Positions 8,697 to 33,374 of a DNA stretch of 33,374 bases are shown one piece after another (within the stretch, counting starts at the first letter, position 1; each line of letters begins with the position of its first letter). Source of the DNA: a bacterium (GTDB lineage: Bacteria; Planctomycetota; Planctomycetia; Pirellulales; Pirellulaceae). A program made the translations under genes and the position numbers. Location of the stretch: positions 1 to 33,374 of the forward strand of contig JAUIHJ010000002.1 in assembly GCA_030432015.1 (NCBI GenBank). The letters run 5' to 3'. Below the pieces are notes generated by a model that had not been told where the DNA came from, did not search any database, and worked only from the letters and a program-made list of their open reading frames with translations.

Positions 8697-11537
8697 ATGC
8701 GAAACAAATACCGGCTGAAATTCCTCGCGGCATTAATGCTGTCTTTGCCGGCGCTGGGCGGGCAGGCCGCCGCCGAACCGCCATCGAGGGAAAGACTCGT
8801 CGACGCTGTTAGCCGGTTGTCGGACCCAAAGTTTGCCGAGCGGCGCGAGGCGTCTCATGAATTATGGTCGGCAGGGTTGGAGGCACGTCCGCTATTGGAG
8901 GCCGCGACCCATAGCACCAACGCGGAAGTTCGCTTGCGTGCCCAGGCCATTCTTGAGCAGTTCAAGATTGGCATTTTCGCCACGACGCCTGCGGAAGATG
9001 TCGTGCTGATTCGCCGATTTCGCGCCGGAGATGTCAGAACGCAGGCGGAATCGCTCAAGCAACTCGCTGATCGCGGTTCAATCGGCGTTGTCCTGCGTCT
9101 GCTGGGACTGGAGGACAACAAGCGTCTGCAAGCGTCGGTGCGGCCGAAGCTGGTTGGTTATCTCGAACAATACGGCGAAACGGACGAGATGTTGCAACTG
9201 GCCGCGGAAGCCCCCACCGAAACGCTTCGCAAGGATATCGTTCGGATCGCCTTGACGAGGCACGAAAAGAGCAAGAATTTCAGCGCCATCGTTCGGCTGG
9301 GAACGTCGCACGCAAGCCCCGCGGTTCGCCGGGCGATCGAGGCGTGGGTTGAAGGAGCTTCGCCACGATTTGTGCCGGTGCTGATGACGCAGGGAGATTT
9401 CCCGACCGTCGAGCGTTTGTTGGAAATTGGCGCCGCAGACGATCTCGGCATGCGCCATCTGGCCGTCTTTGGGCTGCTCCGCGGCGACCTGGAGCAGCGT
9501 ATTGAGCAACTCCGCAAGCGTCGTCCGTCGACGGACGCACCGGAGGAGGTGCGCGCGACGCGTCTACTGGCCTACCTGTTGCGTGCCAATGGCGAGCACG
9601 CCGAGGCCCGCCGTGTCGTCGAGCGATTAGGGGACGACGGGACCGAACTGATGCGAACGCTGCTCGACGAACTTGCCGATTGGCCCGCCGCATTGCGGTT
9701 GAATCAAACCAACCCTCGTCCCAGCGATTTGGAATGGGCCAAGACACAGAATCTGGGCTTTCAGGCGGCGTACCAAAGACTCGCCGGCGACGACGCAGCC
9801 TTTCAGGAAACCATTACCGAACTCGATGAATTAGGAACCTCGAACCCCCAATGGAGCCAACCGTGCGCCAAGGTCCTTTTGATCCATGGCGAGACCGAAC
9901 GCGCCATTAAGCTCAAGCAAGTGGAAGGGCCGGTCGAGGCCTTTGAACTGATGTGCGAGCAATTTCGATACGCCGAGGCCTTTCGCTGGGCGGAGATCGG
10001 TGAAAACGAAGCCGAGCGGCACAGCTGGTTTAAGCAGGTCGCGCAAGACGCCAAGACGCATGCTCATCTTTCGTCACAACGACTGAGTATCGGGCTTTAC
10101 GCGGCACGTGTCCTGGCCCGACTCGGCCATCGGGCGGAAGCGCAGGAGACATTCGAGAAGTTTGGCCAGGCGCTCAAAACGGACGGCTTTGTTTCTCGCA
10201 TCCGCGCCTTATGCGACGCGGAATTGAAAAGCGGATTTCATGACCTCGCCTTTCAGCATGCGACCATGATCGTGGGCAAAGATCGCTCGATTCTATCGAC
10301 CCTGTTCCCCAAGCATCACGAAACGGCCGATACCCTGTGGGACTATTTTCGCCACGTCGATGAAAAGGAAACCTACGCGAAAACGCTGGATCGAATCCGG
10401 AAATTCTTGTACCGCAGCCCCAACCAGACCGAGCCGCCCGATGATCTGACCGCACTGGTCGTGTCTGTCGAGCAAGCGGCGACTGACCTGTCTCCGGCCA
10501 AGGCGGCACGCTGGATATTCTCCGCAGGACGTACCTCCATGCTGTGGGGGCGTCGCGACTTGGCCAAACGGTGTTTTGCTCAGATTGCGGATCGCCATGC
10601 GGATGCGGCCTTAAGTCTGGCGGACCAGTTCGTGGCGGAGAAAGATTGGAATGAGGCCGCCCATTGGTATCGTGTCTGTTGGGAATTGGATCATCGACGC
10701 TCGGGCGCGATCTATCTGCAGGGAAAGATGCTGGCCAATGCCGGGCAGCAGGAAGAGGGAGACCGGTTGATGGAGTTGGCGCGACTGATGCCGCTGGCCA
10801 ACGCACAGAATCGCTACCAACAACTGGCTCGGCCGTTGAAGTCACATCAACTAATGGACGACGCGGTCGCTCAGTGGGAATTGATCGTACAGCAAGGCAA
10901 TTGGACGGAAGAAGAGGTCCTAAGCTCAGTTCGTGACCTGGGCAATGCCGTCGAGAGCCGTGATCTGCTGGCAGCCGCCCGTTACTGGGAGAAGATGTTG
11001 CTGGCATGCCTGCAACTGAAGTTCGGGTTCACACAGCCGGCGGGCTACATTCAGATTCCCTACCTCGTTCATAAAACACGAGCCCGTGGTTTGCTGGCCC
11101 GGGGGAGCGTCGATGAGGCGCTGCCAGTGATCAAGCTGGCGCATGCAATCTGCCCAGGGGATGGCGACCTGATCGAACGTATCGTGCCAGACCTGGAGGC
11201 GGCCGGACATCCGGAGCTGGCGGATCGACTCTTTGATCGTTCATATGAGATCATGGAGGAGTCCTGTCGCCTCTTTGCCCATAGTGCCCGGGTCCGCAAC
11301 GATCTGGCGTGGATGTCCGCGCGATGCAACCGTCGATTGGATGAGGCATTACAGTTGGCCCAGGAGGCGATTGAATTTTCGCCCCGGACCGCGTCCTACA
11401 TCGACACCCTGGGGGAAGTGCACTTTCGCCGGGGTGAAATTGTTAAAGCGACCGCGTGTGCGGAACGCTGTCTGGAACTCGAGCCCGGCAACGCCGGATA
11501 TCAGCAACAGCTCGATCGCTTCCGCGGGTCTCAGTGA
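8697..11537 (+). CDS. Secreted HEAT/TPR repeat-containing protein
   Basis: N-terminal signal peptide (MRNKYRLKFLAALMLSLPALGGQAAA), HEAT-like LSDPKFAERREASHELWSAG...AEVRLRAQAIL, C-terminal TPR-like DEALQLAQEAIEFSPRTASYIDTLGEVHFRRGE. Confidence 0.75.
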   Translation: MRNKYRLKFLAALMLSLPALGGQAAAEPPSRERLVDAVSRLSDPKFAERREASHELWSAGLEARPLLEAATHSTNAEVRLRAQAILEQFKIGIFATTPAEDVVLIRRFRAGDVRTQAESLKQLADRGSIGVVLRLLGLEDNKRLQASVRPKLVGYLEQYGETDEMLQLAAEAPTETLRKDIVRIALTRHEKSKNFSAIVRLGTSHASPAVRRAIEAWVEGASPRFVPVLMTQGDFPTVERLLEIGAADDLGMRHLAVFGLLRGDLEQRIEQLRKRRPSTDAPEEVRATRLLAYLLRANGEHAEARRVVERLGDDGTELMRTLLDELADWPAALRLNQTNPRPSDLEWAKTQNLGFQAAYQRLAGDDAAFQETITELDELGTSNPQWSQPCAKVLLIHGETERAIKLKQVEGPVEAFELMCEQFRYAEAFRWAEIGENEAERHSWFKQVAQDAKTHAHLSSQRLSIGLYAARVLARLGHRAEAQETFEKFGQALKTDGFVSRIRALCDAELKSGFHDLAFQHATMIVGKDRSILSTLFPKHHETADTLWDYFRHVDEKETYAKTLDRIRKFLYRSPNQTEPPDDLTALVVSVEQAATDLSPAKAARWIFSAGRTSMLWGRRDLAKRCFAQIADRHADAALSLADQFVAEKDWNEAAHWYRVCWELDHRRSGAIYLQGKMLANAGQQEEGDRLMELARLMPLANAQNRYQQLARPLKSHQLMDDAVAQWELIVQQGNWTEEEVLSSVRDLGNAVESRDLLAAARYWEKMLLACLQLKFGFTQPAGYIQIPYLVHKTRARGLLARGSVDEALPVIKLAHAICPGDGDLIERIVPDLEAAGHPELADRLFDRSYEIMEESCRLFAHSARVRNDLAWMSARCNRRLDEALQLAQEAIEFSPRTASYIDTLGEVHFRRGEIVKATACAERCLELEPGNAGYQQQLDRFRGSQ

Positions 11538-24044: not shown

Positions 24045-25241
<1,197 letters not shown>

Positions 25242-25319
25242 GCTTTCATACCTACATTTAACTGGGTGATTGCTGAAGAAAAAACACTTGTTGTACGAAT
25301 GTTGCCGCAGAGCGGCCAG

Positions 25320-25392
<73 letters not shown>

Positions 25393-26237: not shown

Positions 26238-27905
26238 TCAGTCCGGCGCATCCATTCGCTCTTCTTGCGCCGCCATCCGCAGCTTGTTCAAGGCACGTGC
26301 TTCGATCTGCCGGACACGCTCTTTTGTGACGCCGAGGTCGGCACCAACTTCTTTGAGCGTTTGTGGTTCCTGACTATGATCCAAACCGAACCGGCTAATG
26401 ATAATCTTCTGCTCGCGTTCGTCAAGGCGGGCCAGAATATGGTTGACCTGCTGCTTCCGGACGCGTTGCGCCGATTCTTGCTCATACTGATCCGGCCGTT
26501 CGTCCTGTTGCCCGGAAAACATCTCTTCCAGGCTGGTCCGAAACCGATCCCGATGCTTGAATTCGTGTGGAATCGATCGAGCGAAGTTTTTCATAATTGC
26601 CCAGCTGGCGTACGTGCTGAACTTATTCCCACGCCCGTAGTCGAACTTTTCGGACGCTCGAATCAAGGAGACATTGCCATCGCTTACCAAGCTGAAAAAG
26701 TCCTGGTTGGGTGAGACATGCCGTTTCGCGATAGAAACCACCAAGCGAAGATTGGCTTTGACGATCTCGTTCTTGGTTTCTACCGCCTGCTCGTAGAGCC
26801 ACTCGATACGATCCATGATGCTAGCACGAGGCCGCTCGTGGTTGATCTGCTTCCGCAGTTTGCTGGCGGTGTATTTCAGGTAATTCAGCTTTCGGAACAG
26901 GTGGTACTCCTGTTCGCGCGTCAACAGGGCGGTGTCGTACAGCGACGCCAAGTAAGGGGGCAACCCCGCCGGGGGACGTGAACGTCGCCGGCTGGATTCC
27001 TCGACCTCTGGCATCGGGCCCAGAATCACTTCCTTATTGCTTTCTTTTTCAAATTCCGCGTTATGAATGAAATCCAGCGGCAGTTCGAGGATCCGCTGCA
27101 ACCGCCGTTCGTTCACGATGCGATAGATACTGGTCCGCGTGCGGCAATAGCGCTTTGCGAGCCGTTCGACCGTCATCCCGCGACGATACGCCTGATAGAT
27201 CTTATTCTTCGTTTCCTCGTTCAGCGTGCCGGTCCGGTGCGGAAACACCGCCAGGTCCGGGTGCTTTTCGTCAAATTGCTTCAACGTATAGCGAATCGTC
27301 TCGACACTGCGATCGGTCTGGCGAGCGATCCGCCGGGCGATTTCCGAGGGGCAGGAGCCGGCTTGGGACATGCGCCGCGCCCGTTCGATAATCTCGTCGC
27401 GCTCTTCGTCGGAGAGCTGGCTGAAGCGTTCGCCGCGTTCGATCCGCTGGCGATTACCGGCCACGAAACGGTCGACGCTACTACGGAGAAAACCAACCCG
27501 CTTGCGACGTCCAAAGATAAAGCGCCGGCTCACCAGCCCTTGCTGCCGCCAACGGGAAATCGTCTTGGTCGAAACCTTGAACAGCTTGCTCAATTCTTCG
27601 ACCGTATGAACGGGTTCGGCCGCGTCTTCCACGCGAATGTCCGCGGCATCGGATACGTCCTCGACAAACAGCCGCAAATCATGGCTCGCTTCCTGGCCAG
27701 ACAGGGTGTTGCCCTGTGCTGCGTCAGGTCGGTAGTCGGTAATCCGGAAGCAAACGTATTCGTAGCTGTAGGTTTTTTGAGGCTCGATTTCGGCCAGTAA
27801 CTTCTCGGCACGATTTGCTTGTTCGAGCTTCTTTTCGCGCGGCGCAAACCGTACCTGTTGGTCGCGCAGTTGCTTGATGATGTTGCTTTGGTATTCAGTA
27901 TGCAT
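26238..27905 (-). CDS. Sigma-70 family RNA polymerase sigma factor with multiple N-terminal HTH-like modules
   Basis: Region 2 (KANLRLVVSIAKRHVSPNQDFFSLVSDGNVSLIRASEKFDYGRGNKFSTYASWAIMKNFARSI) and region 4 (LDEREQKIIISRFGL...LKEVGADLGVTKERVRQIEARALNKLR). ATG at 27905 with GAGG 7 nt upstream is preferred over the TTG at 27929. Confidence 0.93.
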   Translation of the reverse strand: MHTEYQSNIIKQLRDQQVRFAPREKKLEQANRAEKLLAEIEPQKTYSYEYVCFRITDYRPDAAQGNTLSGQEASHDLRLFVEDVSDAADIRVEDAAEPVHTVEELSKLFKVSTKTISRWRQQGLVSRRFIFGRRKRVGFLRSSVDRFVAGNRQRIERGERFSQLSDEERDEIIERARRMSQAGSCPSEIARRIARQTDRSVETIRYTLKQFDEKHPDLAVFPHRTGTLNEETKNKIYQAYRRGMTVERLAKRYCRTRTSIYRIVNERRLQRILELPLDFIHNAEFEKESNKEVILGPMPEVEESSRRRSRPPAGLPPYLASLYDTALLTREQEYHLFRKLNYLKYTASKLRKQINHERPRASIMDRIEWLYEQAVETKNEIVKANLRLVVSIAKRHVSPNQDFFSLVSDGNVSLIRASEKFDYGRGNKFSTYASWAIMKNFARSIPHEFKHRDRFRTSLEEMFSGQQDERPDQYEQESAQRVRKQQVNHILARLDEREQKIIISRFGLDHSQEPQTLKEVGADLGVTKERVRQIEARALNKLRMAAQEERMDAPD

Positions 27906-28675
27906 CGTAATGCCTCTTCTCTTCTGCAAACCTTGCCGGTGTTCCCTGCGACTCCTCGCCCGACAAAATTCCTCGTCCGCTTCGGAAAAGCAGCCAATCC
28001 CGTGCTGCTTCCGCTATTGCAATCCTGTTCCGTCCTTGATACGTCCCGCTCTCCATGTTGGTTCTCTCAGACCCCATTTTCGCCTGAGACGTTCCGAAAC
28101 TCAGTGCGAATTCCCACAAATCCCAGCGTTGCAGCGACCGATCGGGGAGTCAGTGCCGGGTCCCACGGGGCCCGGCGGGGATTATAGAGTGGCTGTCAAG
28201 TATTGTGACCCACGACCGTCACCCCCCCTCTAGTTTTGCCCAGTTTCCCTGGCTCCCCGAATCCCCTTGAAAGGCGTTCGCTACGCGTCGCTCGTTTTCT
28301 TCCGGCTTCCATGTTCTTGTTCCGGTCCCAACCTCGGAGGCTCAGGCCACTGAAGTTCAAACCCCTGAAAAACCCCTGCGGCCCCGCCTGCTTAAGTCTT
28401 GACAAACAAACGGCTTTGCGGGTTCGCTGCCGCCGTGCAAAAGCTGTCGTTTGAGAAAAACAAGGGCCATCCTCAGCGGACTCAATTGACTCGCCAGAAT
28501 AAACCGCGCCCAGGCGCCCAATGTTTCGCTCGTTCGCCTATTTCGTTGAACAAACCGCCAAATCCGGGTCGATGAACCGAAAACGGCCCTTTTTGCTGGC
28601 AACTTTTCTCGAGAACCTTATTTCCGCTCGCCAAGGCAAAAAAATCGCGGCTGCGGAGGAATCAAGACTGGCGAC

Positions 28676-30256: not shown

Positions 30257-33205
30257 CTATTCGACAGCGTCGGCTGGCTCGTCCCAGTTGGCAATCAGAT
30301 CGGCGATCGCGGCGAGTCCCCCGGTCGCTTCGATGTTCTGGCCGCCTTCCTGGAGCAGCCGTTCCAATTCGAGCCACTCCTGATCAGCAAACCCAAGCTC
30401 CTTGGCCTTGCGTAACGCTTCAAGCGCTTCCGGCCATCGCTGCTGGGCGACGAAATAGCAAGCCTTGTTTACGTACAACCACGAATTTCCTGGCCGCAAC
30501 TTCTCGGCGACCTCCAGGTTTTGTTTGGCATGGCGACGATGAATCTCCGCTTGTTCCGGGGATAGCCGCGCCAGGCGCAGATGAACCAGGGCCAGGTTGT
30601 TATACGCTTTGTAGAGGCTGCGGTCTTTTGCCAAGGCGGTCGTCAGGGCTGCTTCGGCATCTGTCAACAGGTCGCGGGTGGGTTCCGACCGATGGGGCGC
30701 ACACAATACGAGTCCCAAGGTGTTATACAGGTCGGCTTCGCCGACTTCATTCGCCCCGCCTCCGCCGCCCGTCAACGTCTTGGTGATTGAGAGTCGGGCA
30801 GGATTTGGCTCGCGGTCCCGCATGTATTCCGCCCAACCGCGCCAACGGTACGCTTGCACGCGCTGATCGCCCTGTAACGTTTCTTCGTATTCTGTCGCGA
30901 GTTGGATCGCTCGCTCGAAATTCCCCAGCAAGCACTGCGCTCCGACGAGCGACGGGACGCCGCCGACCTCGCCGGCTGCCAGGTACTTCTCATTGAGTGC
31001 GACAAGTTGGTTGAGAGATTCCTTGTGGGGAGGAATCGCTGCCAGCCGAAAGGCGTGGAGCGACACGTCGGTTTTCCTTTCCAATGGCATCTCGGACTGC
31101 CATACCGTTTCCGCGAGCTGTGCAAAAACGCTGGAAGGCGCGGCCTGTTCGTCTGCAATTCCAATCAGAACGTCAAGCGCGTCCAAGTTACTTTCCGCAA
31201 CGTAGATCTTCGTGAGCGCGGCCACAATGCTGCCAACTTCCAGCTTGTTCAACACCTCGTCTTCGTTGGCCGGCTTCAATTTCAGGGCCTGCGAGTAGCA
31301 GGTGGTCGCAAGTTGAGCCAGTCCCTGATCGGACGTTGATTGGTCAAGCAACTCGTCCGCGACGGCTTGGAATACTCGTGGTTGGGTTGCCGTTTTGACG
31401 AGCTGTTCGATGTGTTGCTCAATACCCTGCGTGTCCGCAGCCTCCCTTAGCAACTCCAACAAGCGGATGTTGGGATCGATCTGATTCGGGAAATCGTCAC
31501 AGGCCTTGCGCCAACAGGCAATCGCCAGCGGGATGTTATCCTTGTCCTTGAACAGGTGGCCCAGGGCGGTATAAACGCCGAGTGCCGCCGGATCCTCCTT
31601 GTTGACTTGATTCAGCAGGGCCCCTGCCTCTCCCGGTTGTCCTCGCAGCAGGTAGCGCTGGGCAAGATTGTGGAATGAGCCCGCAAAGTGAGGGTGTGGC
31701 GGGCTGATGGCGTCTTGGAGGAGTTTGATCTGGTCTTCCGGGTCACTCGCCTGCAACGCAAGTTCATACTCGACCAGACCGCCAAACTGTTGCCGTGCGT
31801 CCTCGGGCATCGACGCCAGCGTCAACTTCGGTTTGAACTGTTCGAAATACGACGGCGACCAGATCGCCAAGGCGGCGCCAGCCAGCACCAGCCCGGCGAC
31901 CGCTGTCATACCAAGTCGACGACGATTCCGTGCACGCTGCCAGCGGTACGTGTTCTGGATTGATTCAAGCAGACGATCATGACTCAATTCGACATACCGT
32001 TCACCATCGCGTGACTCGGCCCGCAAGATCGCCTCCCGTTCCAGGGTTACGATGTCAGCCGGCGTCACGCCGTAACGACGGATAAGCTCGGACTCCTTCC
32101 GGAGAATCCGAAAACCGTTGGCATCGATCAGCCCGCGCGTGATCAGCCGCTGCACCTGCTTGGCCTTGCCTGAGCGAAAGAGCCGCTCCAGCGTTCGCTG
32201 ATAATACTCACCAAGCATCTTTGACATGCCGGCGTCGCCACCGAGAAAAGACGCGTCGATGGTGCTCGGCGCCCGGCGAAACCAGCTGCGCCGCGCACGC
32301 CGCTTGTCGTCGATACTCCGGCAAAGGACCTGGAGCTGGTAGGGAGCGATTTCGTTCAATTTGACGAACTCGCCGCGTCTTTTTTTGCTCGACAGGAAGT
32401 CGAGAATTTGCCGGACCGCGTCATCGGTGTATTCGAACGTGTCGCTGCCGACATCTTTGTGCACGAACAATGCCGGTTCGCGAATCGCATCTTCGCCGTC
32501 GTCATACGACAACCCGGTCAGTCGTACGCGATTACGAAAGATGGCTGGGATGTTGTTGGCAATTTCTTCCAGCTCACCGAGATAGTCTTCCCGAATGACG
32601 ATCAGAATTTTGACATCCAGCCGACGTTGCTTGGTCCGCCCGCCACTCTGTCGAGCTTGTGAGATCTTCAATTGTCGCAACAGGTTGGCCAGTTCGGCCA
32701 CGAAAGGGGTTCGCGACGACACGTCGTGCAGGGTGAAGAGCTCTTCAAACTGGTCGATCACCAGCAGCGGTGTGATCGGGCGATCATCCTGCCAGAATGC
32801 CGTGCTACGAAAAAACTTGGTCAGGTTGGACCGGTCGCCGTGATGGTATTCTCGGGCGTCGCCTTGTTCGAATTCGCGACCGGCCGATTCGATCTGCCGG
32901 ACGACAGAACTGAGCAAGCTTTCCTGATCGCCTCGTATGTTTCCCGGCCCCGTCTGGACTGGCCCCGTGTGGACCCGAACTGAAATTGGCAGCACATCCC
33001 GCTGCCGCAATCGGCCAAACAGACCTGCCTGAAGCAGCGACGTTTTCCCCATTCCGGAACGCGAGAACAGGACCACCAGGTCTTCCGACAGAATGGAATG
33101 TAAGACCTTCTCGGCATCGCCATCGCGGCCAAAGAAAAGGGCGCGATCGATCGAGTCTTGGGTAAACGGACGAGCTCCTGGATAGCGCTCGCGAGTTGCC
33201 GCCAT
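30257..33205 (-). CDS. nSTAND-like P-loop NTPase with central TM helix and C-terminal TPR repeats
   Basis: PGARPFTQDSIDRALFFGRDGDAEKVLHSILSEDLVVLFSRSGMGKTSLLQAGLF (nSTAND-type N-terminus and Walker A), LLVIDQFEELFTL (Walker B), ELSHDRLLESI, TM GMTAVAGLVLAGAALAIW, TPR-like C-terminus. Start at ATG 33205 with AAGGA upstream. Confidence 0.85.
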   Translation of the reverse strand: MAATRERYPGARPFTQDSIDRALFFGRDGDAEKVLHSILSEDLVVLFSRSGMGKTSLLQAGLFGRLRQRDVLPISVRVHTGPVQTGPGNIRGDQESLLSSVVRQIESAGREFEQGDAREYHHGDRSNLTKFFRSTAFWQDDRPITPLLVIDQFEELFTLHDVSSRTPFVAELANLLRQLKISQARQSGGRTKQRRLDVKILIVIREDYLGELEEIANNIPAIFRNRVRLTGLSYDDGEDAIREPALFVHKDVGSDTFEYTDDAVRQILDFLSSKKRRGEFVKLNEIAPYQLQVLCRSIDDKRRARRSWFRRAPSTIDASFLGGDAGMSKMLGEYYQRTLERLFRSGKAKQVQRLITRGLIDANGFRILRKESELIRRYGVTPADIVTLEREAILRAESRDGERYVELSHDRLLESIQNTYRWQRARNRRRLGMTAVAGLVLAGAALAIWSPSYFEQFKPKLTLASMPEDARQQFGGLVEYELALQASDPEDQIKLLQDAISPPHPHFAGSFHNLAQRYLLRGQPGEAGALLNQVNKEDPAALGVYTALGHLFKDKDNIPLAIACWRKACDDFPNQIDPNIRLLELLREAADTQGIEQHIEQLVKTATQPRVFQAVADELLDQSTSDQGLAQLATTCYSQALKLKPANEDEVLNKLEVGSIVAALTKIYVAESNLDALDVLIGIADEQAAPSSVFAQLAETVWQSEMPLERKTDVSLHAFRLAAIPPHKESLNQLVALNEKYLAAGEVGGVPSLVGAQCLLGNFERAIQLATEYEETLQGDQRVQAYRWRGWAEYMRDREPNPARLSITKTLTGGGGGANEVGEADLYNTLGLVLCAPHRSEPTRDLLTDAEAALTTALAKDRSLYKAYNNLALVHLRLARLSPEQAEIHRRHAKQNLEVAEKLRPGNSWLYVNKACYFVAQQRWPEALEALRKAKELGFADQEWLELERLLQEGGQNIEATGGLAAIADLIANWDEPADAVE

Positions 33206-33218
33206 GTCGGTTCCTTTT

Positions 33219-33374
33219 TCAGCGTGTGTTTTCTCGGCGCCGCAGATCCTTGCGGACCGCCTCGTCAATCTTGGCGACGTCTTGTGGCAACTCAAGACAC
33301 TCGATGCGGTGAAGGTCCCTGAGCTCTTCCAATTGGGCGCCGGGTGCAATCGCGACGGGCAAGATCCATTTGAT
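33219..33374 (-). CDS. C-terminal fragment of a gene truncated by the window's right edge (possible TIR-like domain end)
   Basis: Open minus frame without a start in the window: IKWILPVAIAPGAQLEELRDLHRIECLELPQDVAKIDEAVRKDLRRRENTR*, stop at 33219, 13 bp before the NTPase start. Absent from the supplied ORF track. Confidence 0.55.
   Translation of the reverse strand: MKWILPVAIAPGAQLEELRDLHRIECLELPQDVAKIDEAVRKDLRRRENTR

Follow-up and report, generated by a model that had tools for sequence, protein, structure and literature searches.

A SIR2-like–TIR protein encoded beside a predicted membrane-anchored nSTAND1 ATPase: a putative two-gene NADase conflict system

Gene organization and domain composition

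The window analysed here, a 33,374-nucleotide stretch of DNA from a member of the Pirellulaceae (JAUIHJ010000002.1, assembly GCA_030432015.1), makes up the entire contig C773. The assembly is of metagenome type, with 867 contigs totalling 7.5 Mb and a completeness of 85%. At its right end the window carries two minus-strand genes, encoding a SIR2-like–TIR protein and an nSTAND1 NTPase with a transmembrane (TM)-like segment and TPR repeats. The upstream SIR2-like–TIR gene is truncated by the window end, which leaves its last 51 codons and stop (33219..33374). As an initial annotation made from sequence alone had read it, exactly 13 bp separate the end of this tail from the ATG of the NTPase gene, and the gap (33206..33218, minus strand) contains the Shine-Dalgarno sequence AAGGA. 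The NTPase gene (30257..33205, with its ATG at 33205 and the last base of its stop at 30257) encodes a protein of 982 amino acids (aa). The flanking genes on either side of the pair are oriented oppositely, and the unit therefore consists of two genes.

The remainder of the upstream gene, which the initial annotation had proposed to seek past position 33374, lies on contig C422 (11,160 bp), the final 127 bp of which are 100% identical to the window end. Since this overlap is exact and found nowhere else in the assembly, C773 and C422 are taken to join at the window end, with a reading frame that is uninterrupted over the join and gains about 385 codons (L003:9876-11160, plus strand, contig C422). 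The completed protein has 436 aa, counted from the ATG at L003:9879; other possible starts are the ATGs at 9876 and 9837, with the protein becoming about 14 aa longer from the upstream ATG. An artefactual join, with the SIR2–TIR gene not truly lying beside the NTPase gene, is extremely improbable. The join does depend on a short contig overlap in a metagenome-type assembly, but in addition to the uniqueness of the overlap and the open frame, the TIR fold and the protein length agree with those of relatives, and the identical gene order occurs on unbroken contigs in 21 relatives.

The C-terminal half of the completed protein matches TIR_2 (PF13676; E-value 8.7e-23, 81.5 bits against a curated cut-off of 28), which turns the weakly held guess of a TIR domain in the initial annotation into a firm assignment and removes the prospect of an unrelated housekeeping enzyme. 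The N-terminal half, overlooked at that stage along with its altered active site, matches SIR2_2 (PF13289; 3.5e-12, 47.1 bits against a cut-off of 24.5). In the partner, the nSTAND1 domain (PF20703; 1.8e-26, 94.1 bits against a cut-off of 27.1; best-scoring stretch residues 8-253, 32447..33184, minus strand) contains the Walker A motif SRSGMGKT (residues 48-55, 33041..33064, minus strand) and the Walker B motif LVIDQFEE (residues 148-155, 32741..32764, minus strand), both as first annotated, with the P-loop GKT and the Walker B acidic residues intact and Lys54 as the Walker A lysine. The first P-loop Gly is Ser in the window protein and Gly in most relatives, while DQFEE is invariant among 12 aligned partners. 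TPR profile matches define a repeat region, the putative sensor, at about residues 484-937 (30395..31756, minus strand). The initial reading of an NTPase followed by repeats thus held, but it had missed a single TM-like segment before the repeats, LGMTAVAGLVLAGAALAIW (residues 431-449, 31859..31915, minus strand; Kyte-Doolittle 2.0).

Conservation and distribution of the pair

After duplicate removal, 22 distinct SIR2–TIR loci were obtained from Planctomycetota, Verrucomicrobiota, Candidatus Binatota and Pseudomonadota, and all of them have an nSTAND1 gene directly downstream, so that the proposed TIR and STAND pair has a conserved neighbour in every locus examined. Among 398 genomes of the window's class, six more SIR2–TIR proteins of full length were found, with 20-29% identity to the window protein and a same-strand nSTAND1 gene downstream of each, and a search of the phylum gave one more locus. 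Scanning 84,980 species genomes with a closer sub-alignment of the family added loci from Planctomycetota, Verrucomicrobiota and Candidatus Binatia, and a plasmid search found a complete pair in Paraburkholderia caribensis MBA4 (L092). Many matches in the class search covered the TIR part only and were left out, and the phage records searched contained no match. In several loci (e.g. L037 and L040), the two genes overlap by 4 bp. The window's assembly contains three nSTAND1 genes above the cut-off and one SIR2_2 gene, which makes adjacency by chance very unlikely even once; because the adjacency also recurs in every relative seen, the pairing is more than chance.

Some loci have additional features. 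A Verrucomicrobiaceae genome carries two divergent pairs back to back (L065:477-15324), one with WD40 repeats and the other with a partner of >2,300 aa, while in L039 (2-1063, minus strand) the nSTAND1 partner is broken into two open reading frames by a stop, which suggests decay or a sequencing error. Patatin-like phospholipase genes stand beside the pair in three loci (L060:10977-13551, L061:5160-6838 and L069:7001-7969), accompanied in L060 by a SLATT-type gene with two TM segments; these neighbours are possible additional effectors. A PADLOC scan of 54 neighbouring genes returned mainly kinase-type models, common to three proteins, and was uninformative. L041-L045 gave weak SIR2 matches and were set aside; no such pair was seen in them.

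Active sites of the SIR2-like–TIR protein

Catalytic residues were tallied on an alignment of the 22 SIR2–TIR proteins and five intact SIR2-only relatives, the register of which is consistent with the profile match to ThsA. All 22 SIR2–TIR proteins have replaced the catalytic Asn of TTNxD (T19/A2/G1), the catalytic His of HG (L15/V3/F2/M2) and the Ala of GAG (P11/S4/E4/W2/Q1), the window protein having T for Asn, F for His and GPGT for GAGxS, whereas GAGA, TTNYD and HG are retained in 5/5 of the SIR2-only relatives. In the window protein, T111, S113 and F156 occupy positions at which catalytic residues of SIR2 would be expected. By contrast with the SIR2 residues, the TIR catalytic Glu (helix alphaC; E371 in the window protein) is retained in 22/22. 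A fold prediction for the homologue L060 (AlphaFold2, 17 sequences; predicted local distance difference test, pLDDT, 82.6) gave ThsA, Avs5 SIR2-STAND, KomC and DSR2 as the best Foldseek matches of the SIR2 part; the TIR part was matched best by SPARTA TIR-APAZ and the MyD88 TIR. The residue pattern argues strongly that the SIR2-like half is inactive in NAD+ hydrolysis, and the TIR half has the appearance of an intact NAD+ hydrolase (NADase).

A dual NADase, in which the SIR2-like half would be active by a non-canonical mechanism alongside the TIR, is an unlikely alternative. The SIR2 fold is retained, 21/22 proteins still have the D of TTNxD, and Avs5 proteins with NG instead of HG are active despite the earlier view of HG as essential (PMC12931631), so that the loss of HG alone is not decisive and residual SIR2 activity is possible. 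However, Asn and His are both lost and GAG is altered in 22/22, all three being preserved in the intact SIR2–nSTAND1 pairs, and the Asn110Ala substitution abolishes Avs5 defence (PMC12931631).

Predicted topology and variable domains of the nSTAND1 partner

The TM-like segment of the window protein has a net charge of +6 on its N side versus +1 after it. One such segment directly follows nSTAND1 in 16/18 partners, with the N side more positive in most. The C-terminal parts of the partners vary widely, comprising TPR (the window and L060), WD40 (L036, L053, L064, L065b, L068, L069 and L073), thioredoxin with weak WD40 (L040), a five-haem cytochrome (L038/L059), DUF2610 with TPR (L062 and L063) and a weak pyrroloquinoline quinone (PQQ) match (L065a), and both the thioredoxin domain and the CxxCH motifs that bind haem are positioned after the TM segment. 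Positively charged flanks of TM helices tend to remain inside the cell (the positive-inside rule), and c-type haem matures in the periplasm; on these grounds the variable C-terminal part is predicted to be extracytoplasmic. The sensor part thus probably lies outside the cytoplasm, with the ATPase inside, implying that some bacterial STAND receptors may sense from outside the cytoplasm; to our knowledge, the Avs-type receptors studied to date detect phage proteins inside the cell.

The partner in L038 (4002-7322, minus strand)/L059 (8517-11837) joins nSTAND1 to a multihaem cytochrome c554-like C-terminus with five CxxCH motifs, and such a haem-bearing STAND sensor is unusual.

Related pairs with intact SIR2 or EAD11

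An intact SIR2-only gene followed by an nSTAND1 or nSTAND1-like gene was found in L054, L055, L056, L094 (Nonomuraea) and L097 (Ensifer). L054, L055, L056 and L057, the last with a decayed pair, belong to Planctomycetota outside the window's class. These pairs share the two-gene order and related domains with the window pair, but their SIR2 keeps the active-site motifs and lacks a C-terminal TIR. Because they are available for comparison, effector replacement in a STAND system is testable by single mutations. Just upstream of the SIR2-only and nSTAND1 pairs of L055 (7572-8282, minus strand; KPVGIIGIASTMAYLIIFSG) and L057 (5853-6461, plus strand; RPVGIAGIIPITAYLIIFSG) are genes for small membrane proteins that are similar to each other and have no Pfam match.

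The Haliscomenobacter plasmid pHALHY02 (L093, NC_015512.1:732-7709; L096) encodes a SIR2-like–EAD11 fusion with no TIR, in which the SIR2-like domain retains the Asn but is without GAG and the His. Next come an nSTAND1-like protein that has a TM segment and, after it, separate WD40 proteins that begin with signal-peptide-like sequences. This pair has an integrase beside it, on the other side of the record start, and lies ~15 kb from brxL, pglZ (of the bacteriophage exclusion system, BREX) and 5-methylcytosine (5mC)-restriction genes. As EAD11 here replaces TIR before nSTAND1, the SIR2-like module appears to be constant and the effector module exchanged. In the SIR2 tree, one group (96/92) unites the EAD11 protein with its counterparts from the window and L035. 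The remaining 20 SIR2–TIR proteins and four intact SIR2-only proteins fall outside this group, and the nSTAND1 tree has a similar split, with long-branch warnings. Branches in the SIR2 tree are long, so that it does not show that the SIR2–TIR fusion arose only once and leaves the order of events unsure.

Comparison with known systems

SIR2–STAND (Avs5), TIR–STAND, Thoeris and Swarozyc systems are known, and none has the SIR2–TIR/nSTAND1 make-up, which is a variant of STAND–NADase conflict systems. In Avs5 (AVAST type 5), a STAND ATPase switch with C-terminal repeats is likewise coupled to a SIR2-fold NADase module, and Avs5 filaments are among the closest solved SIR2 folds (PMC12931631). Avs5 is, however, soluble and made as one polypeptide, in which an active SIR2 is joined to nSTAND3, while the window pair has two genes, a degenerate SIR2, an added TIR, nSTAND1 and a TM segment. 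TIR–STAND NLR-like (nucleotide-binding leucine-rich repeat-like) proteins and the nSTAND1 conflict systems described by Kaur, Burroughs, Iyer, Aravind and colleagues (eLife 2020, 2021) share nSTAND1, named by Burroughs, Aravind and colleagues as a conflict-system NTPase (PMC8195603), as well as superstructure repeats and a TIR-type effector, and their effector modules interchange with EAD adaptors (PMC7159879, PMC8195603). The adaptor there is an EAD or Death-like domain rather than a degenerate sirtuin, and the passages located in these papers do not mention a SIR2–TIR fusion with nSTAND1. Swarozyc and TEP1 also use a TIR-fold NADase, that of TEP1 within a STAND/WD40 architecture (PMC13174449), but belong to the DUF4062 clade and have no SIR2 part; the window TIR matches DUF4062 at only 0.005 (17.4 bits against a cut-off of 24.7), far below its TIR_2 match.

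Thoeris resembles the window pair in combining a ThsA-type SIR2-like domain (the best Protein Data Bank match) and a TIR domain within one system. In Thoeris, the ThsB TIR produces a messenger and ThsA, with an active SIR2 and SLOG, kills, whereas the window pair has SIR2 and TIR in one chain, has lost the SIR2 residues, lacks SLOG and has a STAND partner, giving weak partial matches to ThsA and ThsB only. A signalling role, in which the TIR would make a cyclic ADP-ribose (cADPR)-type messenger or serve as a non-enzymatic scaffold while a separate effector kills, is suggested by the messenger role of Thoeris TIRs and by the patatin (L060, L061 and L069) and SLATT-type (L060) genes near some relatives. 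We consider it a minor alternative, as most loci are without a second conserved gene, the window's assembly (85% complete) has no other SIR2_2 gene as a ThsA-like receptor, and the catalytic Glu of the TIR is present in 22/22 proteins.

PADLOC and NCBIfam contain no model for either whole protein or for the system, although the TIR part matches and the ThsA-type SIR2 part matches weakly. The arrangement is not described in the open-access literature searched, a scope that leaves room for prior notice in subscription papers and most preprints. It unites SIR2 and TIR, which are among the main NAD+-destroying immune domains, in one chain, with SIR2 apparently turned non-enzymatic.

Proposed mechanism and function

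Clustering is an established means of TIR activation in SPARTA and SARM1. On balance, we favour a two-gene NADase conflict system in which the pseudo-sirtuin–TIR protein would be activated in trans by the STAND ATPase. The SIR2-like half would serve as an adaptor or oligomerization surface that docks onto the STAND protein, and the TIR half as the effector. The nSTAND1 ATPase would be anchored to the membrane by its one TM helix, facing the cytoplasm with its variable repeats on the other side. Ligand binding by the repeats would cause nSTAND1 to change its nucleotide state and oligomerize, gathering SIR2–TIR proteins through their SIR2-like halves, and the TIR domains brought together would cleave NAD+, leading to growth arrest or death. 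A candidate trigger is phage contact or injection at the envelope, and the system is probably an anti-phage, self-destruct immune system. This degree of confidence applies to the overall scheme and is lower for each of the points that we infer: direct binding between the two proteins, activation of the TIR by clustering, and the topology, the trigger and the immune role.

Several observations weigh against the scheme. The family is sparse, being present in 7/398 genomes of the window's class, and no defence island surrounds the window copy. No clear TM segment occurs at the post-nSTAND1 position in the partners L067 and L069, or in the SIR2-only partners S056 and S094, and the structure model of the nSTAND protein is of low confidence (pLDDT 58), too poor to interpret. 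To these are added the nearly invariant D of TTNxD and the precedent of active Avs5 NG variants discussed above.

The sensor repeats, which are predicted to be extracytoplasmic and in some partners include haem or thioredoxin domains, and the hosts, mostly Planctomycetota and Verrucomicrobiota, would also suit a role other than immunity: the signalling of envelope or redox stress, or cell death during development in bacteria whose cell plan is complex. This explanation is rather improbable, given the patchy spread of highly divergent sequences across phyla, the related EAD11 form on a plasmid near BREX and restriction genes, and NADase and STAND partners typical of phage defence.

Extending the two-gene conflict system favoured here, the degenerate sirtuin may be a general adaptor through which membrane-spanning STAND receptors with an extracytoplasmic sensor are linked to effectors that can be exchanged, mostly TIR but EAD11 in Haliscomenobacter, a proposal that we make tentatively and hold at less than even confidence. 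If true, it would provide a bacterial receptor with Toll-like topology, having repeats outside and an NTPase switch and TIR NADase inside, and would imply descent from an active SIR2–nSTAND1 pair that lost its SIR2 active site and acquired a TIR.

Elsewhere in the window, the surroundings are of housekeeping type, and include minus-strand genes that by sequence resemblance encode elongation factor Tu (24045-25361) and a sigma-70-type factor (26238-27929).
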